From a virus, in IMG/VR virus record IMGVR_UViG_3300047564_005375, positions 1 to 64,000 of that record: a stretch of DNA of 64,000 nt; one strand, 5' to 3'. Below, one piece after another: positions 54,022 to 64,000 of the stretch. The notes below the pieces were generated by a model that was not told where the DNA came from, made no database searches, and was given only the letters and a program-made list of their open reading frames with translations. Made by a program: the position numbers and the translations under genes. How positions within the stretch are numbered: position 1 is the stretch's first letter; every line of letters begins with the position of its first letter.

Positions 54022-54764
54022 TGGGAATAGACCTCACCATAGAATCCAAAGCCATTTCAATTCTTGAAACATACGAGGGGGCAAACAATTATATTTTGGG
54101 TTTAAAAGATAAACTTCAGAATAATAAAAAGTTTTATCCCACCCGTAGTCAAGCTGAGTATATTGTCACCAACAAAGACAATACCCCCAAGGTTGCCAAG
54201 AAGTGGGTTATGTTGGATGCATACTTCTCCAACAAAATTGCTAACGACAAATTCTTAATCAATGTCCCCGAGAAAATTTGGATTGAAAAGTTGTTGGCGG
54301 AGAAAGATAAGGCGTACCACATTTGGGGAAAATTCTTCGAGGGTGATGCTTTGTCTGACATTTGGGTTCCTAAGGTATCACTTATTAAAGACAACAAAGT
54401 CGAGATTGGAGAAATCAACTACGAGAAATACGGTCACCGTCCTCCACTTGAACACCAAAAGACCGCAATTGAGAAACTCCTCGAAAATAAAAAATACATC
54501 TTGGCTGACGATATGGGATTGGGGAAAACAACTTCAACCATCATTGCTTCTTTGGAAACAGGAGCCAAGAAAATTCTTATCATATGTCCCGCAACCCTGA
54601 AGATAAACTGGCAAAGGGAATATGAATTGTATTCAAAAAAGTCGTCTTATGTTTGTGAGGGTAAAAACTATTCTCCCGAAGCTGAGATTGTGATAATGAA
54701 TTACGACATTATCAAAAACTTTCACGATACCAAAAAGAAAAGATTCAATCATTCTACAATCTAA
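54021..54764 (+). CDS. SNF2-family helicase, N-terminal part (before frame break)
   Basis: 247 residues from the ATG at 54021. Residues about 1-150 form a helical N-terminal region, followed by the motif I P-loop DDMGLGKTTSTIIAS and motif Ia ILIICPATLKINWQREYE. The reading ends at TAA 54762 after a run of A's (acc aaaaa g aaaa g). It continues in the +1 frame with the DEAH box and the rest of the helicase. Only the first part of the RecA1 domain is in this product, so on its own it should be inactive. DNA translocase or remodelling activity is expected of the full fused protein. It overlaps the SET gene stop. Confidence 0.8.
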   Translation: MGIDLTIESKAISILETYEGANNYILGLKDKLQNNKKFYPTRSQAEYIVTNKDNTPKVAKKWVMLDAYFSNKIANDKFLINVPEKIWIEKLLAEKDKAYHIWGKFFEGDALSDIWVPKVSLIKDNKVEIGEINYEKYGHRPPLEHQKTAIEKLLENKKYILADDMGLGKTTSTIIASLETGAKKILIICPATLKINWQREYELYSKKSSYVCEGKNYSPEAEIVIMNYDIIKNFHDTKKKRFNHSTI

Positions 54765-54771
54765 ATTTGAT

Positions 54772-55773
54772 TTGGTAATTATCGACGAGGCACACTACAT
54801 CCAAAATGTACAAGCCCAAAGAACCAAACTAATCAACGATTTGGTTAAAGATGTGGAAAGATTGTGGTTGTTGACCGGTACCCCCATGACATCACGTCCC
54901 ATAAATTATTTTAATCTTTTGAGTTTGGTGGATTCACCTGTGGCGAAAAATTGGATGGCTTATGTGATTAGATATTGTTCAGGTTACCAGTTCAAAGTGG
55001 GGATAAGAAAAGTTTGGAATGTCATGGGGGCATCCAACTTGGAGGAACTTCGTGACCGAACCTCTTCCACAGTTTTACGTAGACTGAAAGAAGATGTGTT
55101 AGACCTACCCGAAAAAATTATTACCCCTGTATATTTGAGACTTAGGTCAAAAATGTACGAAGAAGTGATGGGGGATTACTACAATTGGTACGACAAAAAT
55201 CCTGATGAAAGTAAGAACCTATCTATTCAATTTACTAAACTCACGGAAGTTCGACAGGTAATTGCGAATGAAAAAACTCAACACACCATTGAACTTGCGG
55301 AAAACATTATAGAACAAGGAAAAAAAGTTATAATCTTTTGTAACTTTACGAAATCTTTGGAATCCATTTGTGAACACTTTGGAAAATCTGCTGTGAGACT
55401 TGATGGTTCTATGTCTAAAAATCAAAGACAAGAATCTGTAGACAGGTTTCAAGAAGACGAAAAAGTAAAAGTGTTTGTTGGAAATATCAAAGCCGCTGGT
55501 GTGGGTATTACCCTAACCGCAGCCGAAGCCGTTATTATGAATGACCTTTCGTTTCTTCCATCTGACCATAGTCAAAGTGAAGACCGAGCCTACCGATATG
55601 GACAAAAAAACAATGTTTTGGTTTATTACCCTATCTTCGATAACACCATCGAGGGAATCATTTACGACATTCTCAACGCAAAAAAGAGAATCATCGGAAC
55701 TGTCATGGGTGACATTCAAGACGAAACAAATGTTGTAGAAGAAATCTTAAAGAGCATCAACCAAAGGAGATAA
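54772..55773 (+). CDS. SNF2-family helicase, C-terminal part (after frame break)
   Basis: About 333 residues. The frame is open from within the A-run near 54732-54742, and the first usable start is the TTG at 54772. Motif II is IIDEAHYIQN, motif III is LTGTPMTSRPINY, and the C-terminal RecA2 domain has VIIFCNFTKSLE, LDGSMSKNQRQESVDRFQ, VFVGNIKAAGVGITLTAAE and motif VI SEDRAYRYGQKNNV. These match SNF2-type ATPases. The reading continues upstream as DSIILQSKFDLVIIDEAH in the +1 frame, which joins perfectly to the N-terminal half if one A is removed from the run. A homopolymer error, a real mutation, or programmed frameshifting could each explain the break. Confidence 0.8.
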   Translation: MVIIDEAHYIQNVQAQRTKLINDLVKDVERLWLLTGTPMTSRPINYFNLLSLVDSPVAKNWMAYVIRYCSGYQFKVGIRKVWNVMGASNLEELRDRTSSTVLRRLKEDVLDLPEKIITPVYLRLRSKMYEEVMGDYYNWYDKNPDESKNLSIQFTKLTEVRQVIANEKTQHTIELAENIIEQGKKVIIFCNFTKSLESICEHFGKSAVRLDGSMSKNQRQESVDRFQEDEKVKVFVGNIKAAGVGITLTAAEAVIMNDLSFLPSDHSQSEDRAYRYGQKNNVLVYYPIFDNTIEGIIYDILNAKKRIIGTVMGDIQDETNVVEEILKSINQRR

Positions 55774-55788: not shown

Positions 55789-55795
55789 TATTTAT
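55789..55795 (+). promoter_or_regulatory. Candidate late promoter element TATTTAT
   Basis: Context TGTTATTTATAGAAAAATC, 16 bp before the ATG at 55812 of the SOD fusion gene. Confidence 0.4.
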
Positions 55796-55811: not shown

Positions 55812-57335
55812 ATGGAACATCTACAAGAATCCGTGGAAAAACTCGAAAAGAGAATTATCCACGAACAGAAAAAAGAAGAGGTAAAAGTTCTTATCAAAGA
55901 AATGAAAAAAATCGGGATAGAAAAACTCCCGTATGCCTATTCAGCCTTGAAACGATTCATTGACCCAGAGACAATGAACGTTCACTACAATAAACATTAC
56001 AAAGGTTACGTTGATAAACTCAACGGACTTTTATCAAAAAGAAAAGGAAGCGATGACTTGGAAAAAATTATCAAAAGTATTTCCAAGTATCCTAAAGCCG
56101 TAAGAGACAACGCAGGTGGTGCTTTCAATCACGCACTTTTTTGGAACATGTTATCCCCAACCCCGAAAAGAGTCGGAAAGGAAATGAATAGAAAAATCAG
56201 AAAAGATTTTGGTAACTTCATTAAGTTCAAACAAGAATTTGAGAAGATTGCTAAGGAAAGATTCGGTTCAGGTTGGGTGTGGTTGGTTCTTACCAACAAA
56301 GACACATTAAAGATTATGTCTACCCCAAACCAAGATAATCCACTAATGAATGTAATAGAAGGCGGCGGATATCCACTTTTAGGCTTAGATTTGTGGGAAC
56401 ATGCGTATTACCTCAAATACAAAAACAAAAGAGACGAGTACATTAAAAACTTTTGGACTGTCGTCAATTGGGATTTTGTTGAAGGGTTATACAAAATGAA
56501 AACTGAAACACAACTATTAGAAACCAAACAAATGGGACAGTTACTCATGGAAGGTAAATCCAACCCGTGTACTCGTGAACAGGTAGAATTCTACCGTATG
56601 TTGTTCAACGTCAACAAGACGGCAAGAAACAACTACAAGAATACCATTATCAAAGTTCACCAAAAAGAATTTGCCGACAAGTATTACCACCAACGAGACA
56701 ACGGAGAAATCCCCGGTGTCTACAATTTGGAAAAAGAGGGTCGTTCAATTATCAACTACATGAATACTAACTACTCGGTATTCTGTATTATGGTTCGTGA
56801 CCTTAACATGGTTTTGGGAAATATGGGAGAACCTTTGATTGATTTCAACGACAAGACACCTTCCGAACAAATTACTGAAATGAAACGCATGTGTCGTTTC
56901 ATCGAAAAATACTCAGGTCGTATTTTTGACCCAAAGAGTTCAACATTCAAAAATATTATGTCAACTTTGGCTGAAAAAGATAAAATTGGAACTCGTAGGG
57001 AATCTACCGCTAAGGAAAAGATTATTAAGAACCTACCTGGCGTTGCAGTTATCGGAACCGCAGGAGCTGGTAAAGAAATCGATGCCGTTCAAAAAATTGA
57101 CTTAAAAATTCACTTCCAAGGGCAAAACCTCACCGCTCAAGTAAAAGGGTTTGATGAACTCAAAGAGGAAGGTGACAAAATTGTGGTAACCAAACCTGGT
57201 GAAATCGACATTTACAAGGTCGATTGGATGGTTTTTGTAAAAGGTGGTCGGGTTGTTATATTCAAAAACAATCCTGAAATTGTTCTTGGTGAATATGTTT
57301 TTGACAAAAATGACCTTCTGTACAACTTAAGATAG
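55812..57335 (+). CDS. Fe/Mn superoxide dismutase fused to a nuclease-like C-terminal domain
   Basis: 507 residues. Residues 1-35 are a charged helix. Residues about 37-230 form a full Fe/Mn SOD. The opening is LPYAYSALKRFIDPETMNVH with ligand H58; H107 lies in AGGAFNHALFW; FGSGWVWLV follows; and D193/H197 lie in LLGLDLWEHAYY. All four metal ligands are present, so dismutation of superoxide is plausible. Residues about 240-390 are helical and unrecognised. Residues about 393-507 contain GTAGAGKEIDAVQKIDLKIH followed by LTAQVKGF. E422, D430, Q443 and K445 are spaced like a D-x(n)-[EQ]-x-K nuclease site of the Mrr/PD-(D/E)XK type. Fusing these activities is unusual. It lies 38 bp after the helicase. 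The nuclease call is inference. Confidence 0.8.
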   Translation: MEHLQESVEKLEKRIIHEQKKEEVKVLIKEMKKIGIEKLPYAYSALKRFIDPETMNVHYNKHYKGYVDKLNGLLSKRKGSDDLEKIIKSISKYPKAVRDNAGGAFNHALFWNMLSPTPKRVGKEMNRKIRKDFGNFIKFKQEFEKIAKERFGSGWVWLVLTNKDTLKIMSTPNQDNPLMNVIEGGGYPLLGLDLWEHAYYLKYKNKRDEYIKNFWTVVNWDFVEGLYKMKTETQLLETKQMGQLLMEGKSNPCTREQVEFYRMLFNVNKTARNNYKNTIIKVHQKEFADKYYHQRDNGEIPGVYNLEKEGRSIINYMNTNYSVFCIMVRDLNMVLGNMGEPLIDFNDKTPSEQITEMKRMCRFIEKYSGRIFDPKSSTFKNIMSTLAEKDKIGTRRESTAKEKIIKNLPGVAVIGTAGAGKEIDAVQKIDLKIHFQGQNLTAQVKGFDELKEEGDKIVVTKPGEIDIYKVDWMVFVKGGRVVIFKNNPEIVLGEYVFDKNDLLYNLR

Positions 57336-57342
57336 TACCGAC

Positions 57343-57349
57343 TATTTAT
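57343..57349 (+). promoter_or_regulatory. Candidate late promoter element TATTTAT
   Basis: Context GACTATTTATATGTATG, 4 bp before the ATG at 57354 of the gp13-like gene, in the 18-bp gap after the SOD fusion. Confidence 0.4.
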
Positions 57350-57353
57350 ATGT

Positions 57354-58472
57354 ATGGCAGTAATTCCAGAACCCGAAAGAAGTAGAATTTATACTCGTCT
57401 TAAGCACCAACTTGGTGCCCCTTTACGTAGCGTTGAATTAGAGGATGAAATGTTGGATTCCTTGATGGAACTTTCCATCGAAGATTACGAACAATACGTT
57501 CTCGATTGGTTAATTGAATCACAATGGACAAACCTTGTGAACCTCAACATGAGTGAAAAATCAGTTGCAAATGCCCTGATTACAAGAACACTCAATTTTG
57601 AAGACCAATTCACCTATGCATATTCAAAGATTGTTGGTCTACAAACTGTAGGACCGTGGGTATTGAAACAAGATTATTTCGTTTTAAGTGCCGGTACTCA
57701 ATCTTATGAAATTCCGGCGGGTAGAGAAGTTAACGAACTTCTTTGGTTCTCAAACCAACCTTTTCAAAACTTGGCATTGTGGGGAACCACAGACTATGGT
57801 TTTGGTGGTGTTGGATTGGGAGCTAACCAAGCAGGGTACGCACAAATTGGAACTGCCGGTTCTTACTTTATGTTGAGTGGATTCGATTATCTTTTAAGAT
57901 ATCAAGAAGCGAACATCCTTAACAGAATCTTAGGAGGTGAGTTAACCTACAAAATCACAGGTCTCCCTGATGGTAAAAGGTTGATTACCCTCTACAATGC
58001 CCCAGGTAGTAACTTCTCATGGAGTAACTACTCTGAATATACAGGAAAGGCTGTATGGTATTTCTACTACGAAGTCGATGGAGACAGTAGAGCACAATGT
58101 CTAAAAGACAATCCTGACATTATTAAGTTACCTTCAGATGTTCCACTTGAACAACTTTCTTGGGAAGATTTGAATGTTCCTGGTCAACAATGGGTTAGAC
58201 GCTGGTTCACGGCTTACGCCAAAGAAACTTTAGCTCGTGTTCGTGGAAAATACAGTGGAAACTTGAAAACACCTGACAGTGAAATTATCATGGATTATCA
58301 GGTACTTCAAACTGAGGCAAAAGATGAAAAGAGTAAGTTAGAAGAAGAACTAAAATTACGTCTTGAAAGACTCCGTCCTGAAAATCAAATGAAGAAGGAA
58401 GCGGAAATTGCTGAAAACCTCAACAAACAAATGAAGTACAGAGCAATGCCAAGACAGATTTACGTAATATAA
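57354..58472 (+). CDS. Neck/head completion protein, gp13-like
   Basis: 372 residues. The N-terminus has the neck-protein pattern: YTRLKHQLGAPLRSVELEDE, then SIEDYEQYVLDWLIESQWTN. The middle is beta-rich (YEIPAGREVNELLWF, GLPDGKRLITLYNAPG). The C-terminal helices WVRRWFTAYAKETLARVRGK and a long charged helix (about 320-360) match the closing part of gp13-type proteins. In T4, gp13 and gp14 form the neck that binds the tail terminator gp15. Here gp13 is on the plus strand, about 3.8 kb from the gp14-like gene on the minus strand, with the SET/helicase/SOD cargo between them. Confidence 0.65.
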   Translation: MAVIPEPERSRIYTRLKHQLGAPLRSVELEDEMLDSLMELSIEDYEQYVLDWLIESQWTNLVNLNMSEKSVANALITRTLNFEDQFTYAYSKIVGLQTVGPWVLKQDYFVLSAGTQSYEIPAGREVNELLWFSNQPFQNLALWGTTDYGFGGVGLGANQAGYAQIGTAGSYFMLSGFDYLLRYQEANILNRILGGELTYKITGLPDGKRLITLYNAPGSNFSWSNYSEYTGKAVWYFYYEVDGDSRAQCLKDNPDIIKLPSDVPLEQLSWEDLNVPGQQWVRRWFTAYAKETLARVRGKYSGNLKTPDSEIIMDYQVLQTEAKDEKSKLEEELKLRLERLRPENQMKKEAEIAENLNKQMKYRAMPRQIYVI

Positions 58473-62360: not shown

Positions 62361-64000
62361 TTAGGACTCTTTTCTTAACCCCGCATCATAAAACTCAAAT
62401 CTGTCATGTTCCGTGGGGGTAATCATCATTAAACCTGGTTTGATGTTACCCGCCTTAGTTTCTTGGAAGATGTAACTCATCCAAGTTTGTTCGAAAGGTC
62501 TTTCCCATTTGGTTGTTAGGAACATTTTTTCATTACCATACTTAGAAACCACTTGGGGCCAATTACAATAATAAACTTCACCAATTGAGAACGGGATTCC
62601 CTTATAGGAAAACATTTGATTAAACTTAGTTCTCGGAGCATTTGGGTCTAAACCTTGTACGGGTAACGTTGGCTTTTCAGGCCAGTACTCCTCTCTTTTG
62701 TGTTGAGGTACGTTATACCATGACCATTGAACTCCATTATCACCATAAAATTCGGAGTAATTCAATTTGATAAAGTCCAAAGAATTATTTTTGGTAATCT
62801 CAAGAGATTTGTTATAAATGTCGGTCACGTGTCTGTTGAAACCGTTTCTACAAACTTGGTCTTGCCCTTTGTAAAAAAACATATCATCTTCAAAGAACCA
62901 ATAGAAATCGAAATCATTTTCTTGAGCATGTTCAGCAATCCATTGTCTACCCCCACAAATACCTAAGTTATCTTTTTTGATATGTTCAAAATTATATTGA
63001 TTACAAAGTTCTAAGTATTTTTCTGTGGTAGACAAATCAGAGGAATTGTCCAACAAGAATTTTTTTGGTTTGTCAAGAAAATTTCGGTCGTAAATTTCCA
63101 TCGACTTCATTAGTGTCTCAAATTGATTCGGACTGTTGAAGGTAATGACATAAAGTGCTGTGTTCTCAATATTCAATTTATTGTAATTCGAAACACCATT
63201 AACATTTTTTAAAACGTGTTTGTCGTTTTTTAAATCTTCACAAAACTTTCCAATTAGACCATTATCCTCAATCTCGTAGTAATCAAACATATCAGAGTGT
63301 CTGTACAACATAATACTAAAAAGAGATTCTTCAGTGCCCATGTATCCTTCATTGAGTGTGGATTGTAACACGTTGTAGTAAATCCCATTTACATCACCGA
63401 TAACACTTTTACTACCACCAAACAAACCTCCTCTACAAACTAACTTTACATCGGAACCTGCGTATTGATTAATCTTAGGATATGTGAATCCATGAATCTC
63501 GGTTTCCGCTTTATAAGGAAATGCAATAAACCCAAACTTAGAAAATAATTTATCAAATTTGTTTTGTATTTTATCATGAGTGAAGTAACCCCAATGTACA
63601 GTGTTTGTAATTCCGGCATCAATCCAATACATGTATTGGGAATTGAATTGGTCCATTATACGAGCATCATTTAACAAAAACATTTTTGACATCACAAGTG
63701 GATTGTACATTTCCAACTTAGCTTGTGTTGATTCCGGTAACCAACCAGACTGATTGTACCAAGAGGGATTCGTTCTTATTTTTTGAATTTTGTCGTATAT
63801 GTCATTTTTGAACCAATCCTGAGACCGAGGTATAAATTGAGTGTTTTCTCTACTTCTTCTTTCGAAAACAAAACTTTCCAACTCGGGGTCTCCAAAAATA
63901 ATCATGTTATTTTCCACTTTAAGAAGTTGGTCAAACTTTTCTAAGTAGTGTTCAAAACTCCTTGACCAACCTTCTGTCAAAGAATCTCTTTTGATATTCC
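62361..64000 (-). CDS. Two-domain glycosyltransferase-like protein (5' end outside window)
   Basis: At least 546 residues. The frame is open to the window edge beyond the TTG at 63980, so the true start lies outside. The first domain (about 1-260) resembles the HtrL/YibB family: SRSFEHYLEKFDQLLKVENN, NPLVMSKMFLLNDARI, QYMYWIDAGITN and FGGSKSVIGDVN. The second domain (about 280-545) looks like a GT-A glycosyltransferase: ALYVITFNSPNQFETLMKSM, NLGICGGRQWIAEHA and the acidic metal-site motif FYWFFEDDMFF. It may transfer sugars to virion proteins or host surface glycans, or modify phage DNA. No signal peptide or membrane segment is seen in the visible part. Confidence 0.65.
   Translation of the reverse strand, partial: NIKRDSLTEGWSRSFEHYLEKFDQLLKVENNMIIFGDPELESFVFERRSRENTQFIPRSQDWFKNDIYDKIQKIRTNPSWYNQSGWLPESTQAKLEMYNPLVMSKMFLLNDARIMDQFNSQYMYWIDAGITNTVHWGYFTHDKIQNKFDKLFSKFGFIAFPYKAETEIHGFTYPKINQYAGSDVKLVCRGGLFGGSKSVIGDVNGIYYNVLQSTLNEGYMGTEESLFSIMLYRHSDMFDYYEIEDNGLIGKFCEDLKNDKHVLKNVNGVSNYNKLNIENTALYVITFNSPNQFETLMKSMEIYDRNFLDKPKKFLLDNSSDLSTTEKYLELCNQYNFEHIKKDNLGICGGRQWIAEHAQENDFDFYWFFEDDMFFYKGQDQVCRNGFNRHVTDIYNKSLEITKNNSLDFIKLNYSEFYGDNGVQWSWYNVPQHKREEYWPEKPTLPVQGLDPNAPRTKFNQMFSYKGIPFSIGEVYYCNWPQVVSKYGNEKMFLTTKWERPFEQTWMSYIFQETKAGNIKPGLMMITPTEHDRFEFYDAGLRKES

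Follow-up and report, generated by a model that had tools for sequence, protein, structure and literature searches.

A superoxide dismutase joined to a PD-(D/E)XK nuclease-like domain in T4-like phages: a putative capsid-targeted polyprotein

Prohead proteases of the T4 type cut their substrates behind a glutamate residue. In case of T4 itself, Alt is cleaved at ITE-6 and LTE-619 (PMC5694885), and EcoRI or staphylococcal nuclease fused to a T4 internal protein or leader was packaged and delivered (PMC9026906). The particle of the chlorovirus PBCV-1 carries a superoxide dismutase (SOD), restriction endonucleases, and a SET protein (PMC7019647), and SODs of freshwater phages have been interpreted as stress relief (PMC6802176). 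The phage gene described here resembles IPI-III and Alt of T4 in the T4-like head with a gp21-type protease, in its predicted late expression, and in a leader ending in [LI]-x-E. In contrast to these proteins, its product joins two enzymes, an SOD and a nuclease, with likely cut sites between them, and its packaging is a prediction. PBCV-1 (a245r, vSET) provides the parallel of a late SOD and nucleases that are delivered together, along with a SET protein (PMC7019647), but its SOD is of the Cu/Zn type, the proteins are separate, and the virus is eukaryotic; no homology is claimed.

The window analysed comprises 64,000 nt of a viral record that represents a 66.8-kb fragment of a T4-like phage, from which gp21 and gp23 are absent. 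Tail sheath, baseplate, DNA polymerase, ribonucleotide reductase, and recombination genes surround the SOD-nuclease gene, which is situated between an SNF2-type helicase gene and a head-tail adaptor-like gene. The features of the locus are as follows.

53557..54021, + strand: SET-domain gene, present in some relatives only (PF00856, E 1.5e-13)
53985..55773, + strand: SNF2-type helicase, constant upstream neighbour, two ORFs in this record only
55789..55795, + strand: TATTTAT late-promoter-like element, 23 nt 5' of the SOD-nuclease start codon
55812..57335, + strand: SOD-linker-nuclease gene, 507 aa (58 kDa), a real ORF
55812..55901, + strand: N-terminal leader, residues 1-30, ending at the conserved [LI]-x-E30; putative capsid-targeting propeptide
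55917..56483, + strand: Mn-type SOD domain, residues 36-224 (Pfam and solved-structure matches)
56496..56567, + strand: linker, residues 229-252, with low model confidence at 235-248
56514..56525, + strand: putative prohead-protease site 1, L235-x-E237-[ST]238 (motif conservation)
56544..56555, + strand: putative prohead-protease site 2, [LI]245-x-E247-[GSTA]248 (motif conservation)
56556..57332, + strand: helical module and PD-(D/E)XK nuclease, residues 249-507 (model and fold comparison)
57000..57146, + strand: nuclease active-site stretch (E397 at 57000, D424 at 57081, D430 at 57099, Q443 at 57138, K445 at 57144)
57343..57349, + strand: TATTTAT element ahead of the downstream virion gene
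57354..58472, + strand: head-tail adaptor-like gene, constant downstream neighbour (phrog_211, E 1.3e-10; synteny)

The SNF2 gene adjoins the SOD-nuclease gene in nearly all loci and is a single ORF in 116 of the 117 loci that have both halves; its split at 54740-54775 of the window is probably a frameshift. The co-occurrence with SNF2 and SET genes that had been proposed for checking was thus found for SNF2, but for SET in only part of the loci. A SET gene near the fusion parallels PBCV-1, but it likewise accompanies only part of the relatives. At locus L303 (4102-6492), an intein-like sequence (ALKIDTLIFTPTGTKRFGDLKVGDKV) seems to open the SNF2 ORF directly after MGVGK, in the expected place of the SNF2 ATP-binding motif. 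Further downstream in the window (62361-63980), an HtrL_YibB-like protein is encoded that weakly matches TET-associated glycosyltransferases, and for which DNA or surface glycosylation is possible.

Residues 36-224 match Sod_Fe_N (PF00081, E 5.9e-21) and Sod_Fe_C (PF02777, E 2.4e-39), and the nearest solved structures are MnSODs (E 3e-57). The metal ligands H58, H107, D193, and H197, on which a sequence-only reading of this gene had based its call of a complete Fe/Mn SOD, do not vary among 98 distinct homologues, and neither do the second-shell residues H62, Y66, W157, Q174, E196, and Y200. Among the latter, we take H62, Y66, Q174, E196, and Y200 to be His30, Tyr34, Gln146, Glu170, and Tyr174 of E. 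coli MnSOD; Q174 provides the MnSOD signature. The full metal site, the second shell, and Gln174 are shared with the Fe/Mn SODs of PDB entries 8avn, 1jr9, and 6gsc, to which the phage protein adds an N-terminal leader and a C-terminal cargo. The domain is a complete, Mn-type member of the family and a predicted dismutase. Mean pairwise identity amounts to 77% in the SOD, the best-conserved part of the protein, and to 46-49% in the C-terminal modules. This level of conservation, together with an active site that is invariant throughout, disfavours the reuse of the SOD as a mere metal-binding scaffold that had been considered.

No Pfam or PHROG family was matched by the C-terminal approximately 270 residues, sequence searches against solved structures gave nothing usable and matched no solved nuclease, and a scan of bacterial genomes returned no relatives of the nuclease module. 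A match to an S-CAM9 baseplate protein (E 0.7) was dismissed as chance. An AlphaFold model of residues 249-507, built from 58 aligned sequences, reached a pLDDT of 91 and a pTM of 0.83. In a Foldseek comparison to solved structures, the homing endonuclease I-Ssp6803I ranked first (probability 1.00, with a modest E of 1.2e-3) and the resolvase Hjc fourth (probability 0.90), RecU matched weakly, and viral models annotated as PD(D/E)XK matched likewise. The core fold is shared with I-Ssp6803I (PDB 2ost, a PD-(D/E)XK homing endonuclease) and the Hjc resolvases, to which the phage protein adds a helical module of about 140 residues. E397, D424, D430, Q443, and K445 are invariant in the 98 distinct proteins and form the nuclease pattern of a helix Glu (E397), Asp (D424 and D430), and an [E/Q]-x-K motif (Q443-x-K445) on adjacent strands. 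Neither of the two outcomes named as refuting the sequence-based proposal, a C-terminal model lacking the PD-(D/E)XK core or variable residues at 430-445, was observed. The nuclease-like character of the C-terminus and the place of D430, Q443, and K445 in its core were thereby borne out, except for E422, which is not conserved and gives way to E397 and D424 as the invariant acidic residues, and for the label "Mrr-like", in place of which I-Ssp6803I and Hjc are the nearest solved folds. The assignment as a PD-(D/E)XK nuclease is well supported at the level of fold and motif, and the domain is a putative DNA-cleaving enzyme.

A standalone homologue of 290 aa without SOD is encoded by the 735-kb phage LR756501 (L136); it shares the nuclease module (hhalign probability 98.9) and retains E, D, D, and Q-x-K. 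As a query, this protein retrieved no viral contigs. Its gene (L136, 7275-8615) adjoins a SET-domain gene, and the fusion in the window likewise has a SET gene nearby.

Scanning of viral contigs revealed 346 relatives on the first pass and at least 569 with a profile; among the 80 relatives listed, nearly all are full-length, with 48-96% identity. The fusion is not a chance event, because it is present on hundreds of viral contigs, and both active sites are invariant in the 98 distinct proteins. It occurs in uncultured T4-like phages from aquatic habitats, which form a large family. Among annotated phage records, the closest capsid proteins belong to a 484-kb uncultured phage, a Microcystis phage, and Flavobacterium phages, and Flavobacterium-like hosts are possible from this similarity. 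The earlier statement that no known family joins the two domains has to be qualified, since the search for the same fusion succeeded in these contigs and in A0A6J5L953 (UniProt, uncultured Caudovirales phage; 500 aa, 45% identity), which belongs to the same family over its full length. The annotation of A0A6J5L953, "superoxide dismutase", covers the SOD half only. No described SOD-nuclease fusion was found in the literature searched, where few subscription journals were covered.

Residues 235-248 of the flexible, disordered linker have a pLDDT below 50. This segment contains the only two [LI]-x-E-[AGST] tetrads that are kept in at least half of the sequences over the whole 507 aa, at residues 235-238 (89 of 98 sequences) and 245-248 (93 of 98). 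Two or more linker tetrads occur in 84 of the 98 sequences, compared to an average of 1.1 in within-linker shuffles, which ignore the kinship of these interrelated sequences. A looser [LI]xE directly precedes the SOD at residues 28-30 (92 of 98), where P1' is mostly Met, in contrast to the other sites; a fourth conserved [LI]xE, at 194-196, is the active-site motif of the SOD itself. Though short, the linker motifs match that of T4-type prohead proteases and are considered putative cut sites. An S77 prohead protease is encoded in 6 of 16 related records, most of which are fragments, and the gp23 capsid proteins of the relatives read YLINE/AS or FLINE/AS (slash, cut position) where T4 gp23 is cut.

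A TATTTA[TA] element is located 11-41 nt upstream of the SOD-nuclease gene in 97 of the 98 homologues. In the window, TATTTAT occurs 11-43 nt ahead of about 12 genes, including those of sheath, baseplate, SOD-nuclease, and adaptor; these are virion and unassigned genes, with no identified replication gene among them. In a 171-kb relative, the element marks the portal, scaffold, protease, and sheath genes. Since TATTTAT is common to virion genes, it points to late expression of the SOD-nuclease gene together with them. T4-type TATAAATA promoters were discarded as the relevant element, as only 7 matches were found and as many occurred in 5 of 100 shuffles. TATTTAT is often situated just 11-12 nt from the start codon (window gene starts and loci L282-L306), which leaves almost no 5' leader, and some late mRNAs may be leaderless. 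In G001, differing late proteins at 105382 and 125705 (L165 and L166) have common leaders, e.g., MKKI[IV][RK]LTE[ST]DL...[LI]xE; such shared leaders look like capsid-targeting sequences, by which a group of injected proteins could be recognised.

With the downstream adaptor gene as query, 78 further loci were obtained, of which 44 contain the full SOD-nuclease fusion. Other architectures at the same place are the following.

L286, L289, L299: SOD alone
L274, L276, L278, L302: SOD and nuclease as adjacent separate genes
L271: leader and nuclease, without SOD
L282, L306: zincin-like HExxH module and SOD
L291, L296, L300, L305: zincin, SOD, and diverged nuclease
L298, L295: zincin, SOD, diverged nuclease, and one or two copies of a further module
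L277: further module present, nuclease absent
L290, L303: unrelated proteins

Nearly all architectures at the locus retain the late element, including the unrelated replacements; the exceptions are L271, L250, and, in the split pairs, the second gene. The diverged nuclease aligns with the first one (hhalign probability 74, E 2.8e-5) at E, D, D, and QVK. At least one [LI]xE in the 45 residues that follow the SOD was present in every one of the 141 distinct SODs with cargo that were scored; 124 of them have two or more, and P1' is mostly S, G, T, or A. No [LI]xE was found in 11 of 12 cargo-less SODs, although their tails are short (4-36 aa) and the absence is partly trivial. The leader of the SOD-only proteins of L286, L289, and L299 ends in FFINE/A, at the same place as in the fusion. 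In case of the separate nuclease genes, the product opens with MKNSFVLNE/EKVTKC or MKKLFVINE/EKVTKC, i.e., with a short leader ending in [LI]NE, and in L271 a leader ending in LVLSE/S is attached directly to the nuclease. For the leaders exchanged at L271, L274, L286, and L302, capsid targeting is the putative role.

The N-terminal HExxH module that precedes the SOD in L291, L293, L295, and L298 is zincin-like, with a weak SprT-like match (L293, E 0.047). A third nuclease in L293 (FEALIAGLL...PYDVV...SCKV) appeared by eye to be of the PD-(D/E)XK type, but the profile comparison with the first nuclease was unsupportive, and the assignment stands as a lead. In L250 (6876-8993) and L261 (8433-8957), a lone SOD and the adaptor gene have a separate gene between them, whose product in L261 carries threonine/proline-rich repeats at its end.

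We consider it fairly probable that the gene encodes a late, capsid-targeted polyprotein that is cut in the prohead and whose SOD and nuclease are ejected into the next host. The leader of about 30 residues, or the SOD itself, would take the polyprotein into the prohead core, where a T4-type prohead protease would cut after E30, E237, and E247 during head maturation. The capsid would thus contain the Mn superoxide dismutase and the PD-(D/E)XK nuclease as free enzymes, and both would leave it with the DNA. In the next host, the SOD would remove superoxide during the takeover, while the nuclease would cut DNA, with unprotected host or competing DNA as the likeliest target.

The main rival, which we regard as unlikely, assigns the C-terminal domain to DNA debranching late in infection, as a stand-in for T4 endonuclease VII that acts with the SNF2 helicase before or during packaging, and it is similarly unlikely that the SOD guards the replicating DNA or serves as a dimerising carrier in such an enzyme. 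The Hjc match and the weak RecU match agree with a debranching role, as do the SNF2 gene next door, the late promoter (late timing also suits a DNA-packaging nuclease), and the fact that the endonuclease VII family was unmatched in 8 related records, one of 171 kb. The C-terminus itself did not match this family (PF02945) either. Against the rival, HNH nucleases are present elsewhere in the 171-kb relative. Debranching leaves the protease-like sites at each joint unexplained, and likewise the leader-nuclease join of L271 and the leader of the split nuclease. Moreover, SOD-only, zincin-SOD, and unrelated replacements are unexpected at the locus of an essential resolvase, so that the exchange of cargo argues against such a role.

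Two other explanations appear improbable to us, to the same degree. One is a single bifunctional enzyme for defence or counter-defence whose DNA cleavage is governed by the activity or metal state of its SOD, close to the coupling of superoxide removal or redox sensing to cleavage that had been suggested from the sequence. The intact active sites and the wide distribution of the fusion fit this. C253, which is invariant, offers a lead towards redox control, but it sits where the nuclease module begins and is retained by nucleases encoded without SOD (L271, L274). Redox coupling is disfavoured because the linker looks cleavable and the relatives have the parts separate or alone; given the cleavable-looking joints, the late element, and the exchange of cargo, a cut polyprotein fits better than a coupled single enzyme. 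The other is an auxiliary metabolic SOD that eases late oxidative stress, into whose gene the nuclease was recruited as a homing or selfish element. The reading of freshwater phage SODs mentioned at the outset, the resemblance of the nuclease to a homing endonuclease fold, and the nature of the locus as a replacement hotspot speak in its favour. Homing nucleases usually reside in introns, inteins, or free-standing genes, whereas hundreds of copies show the present nuclease fixed as a fusion, behind a conserved linker, and its catalytic residues are kept over large distances.

Considering the locus as a whole, chances are about even that one late locus of T4-like aquatic phages strings together a zincin-like HExxH module, an MnSOD, a 90-residue module, and at least two kinds of nuclease with prohead-protease sites at the joints, whereby one gene would load separate effectors into the capsid in a fixed ratio for injection. 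With this family, a nuclease is assigned to hundreds of proteins that are otherwise labelled SOD or hypothetical. The conserved leader and joint sites provide a sequence criterion by which further injected proteins may be picked out of the unnamed late genes. If the SOD is head cargo, its action falls at the onset of infection, similarly to the situation in chloroviruses, and not among the auxiliary metabolic functions. If the capsid-targeted polyprotein holds true, its cleavage would allow tailed phages to load several effectors by means of a single gene.
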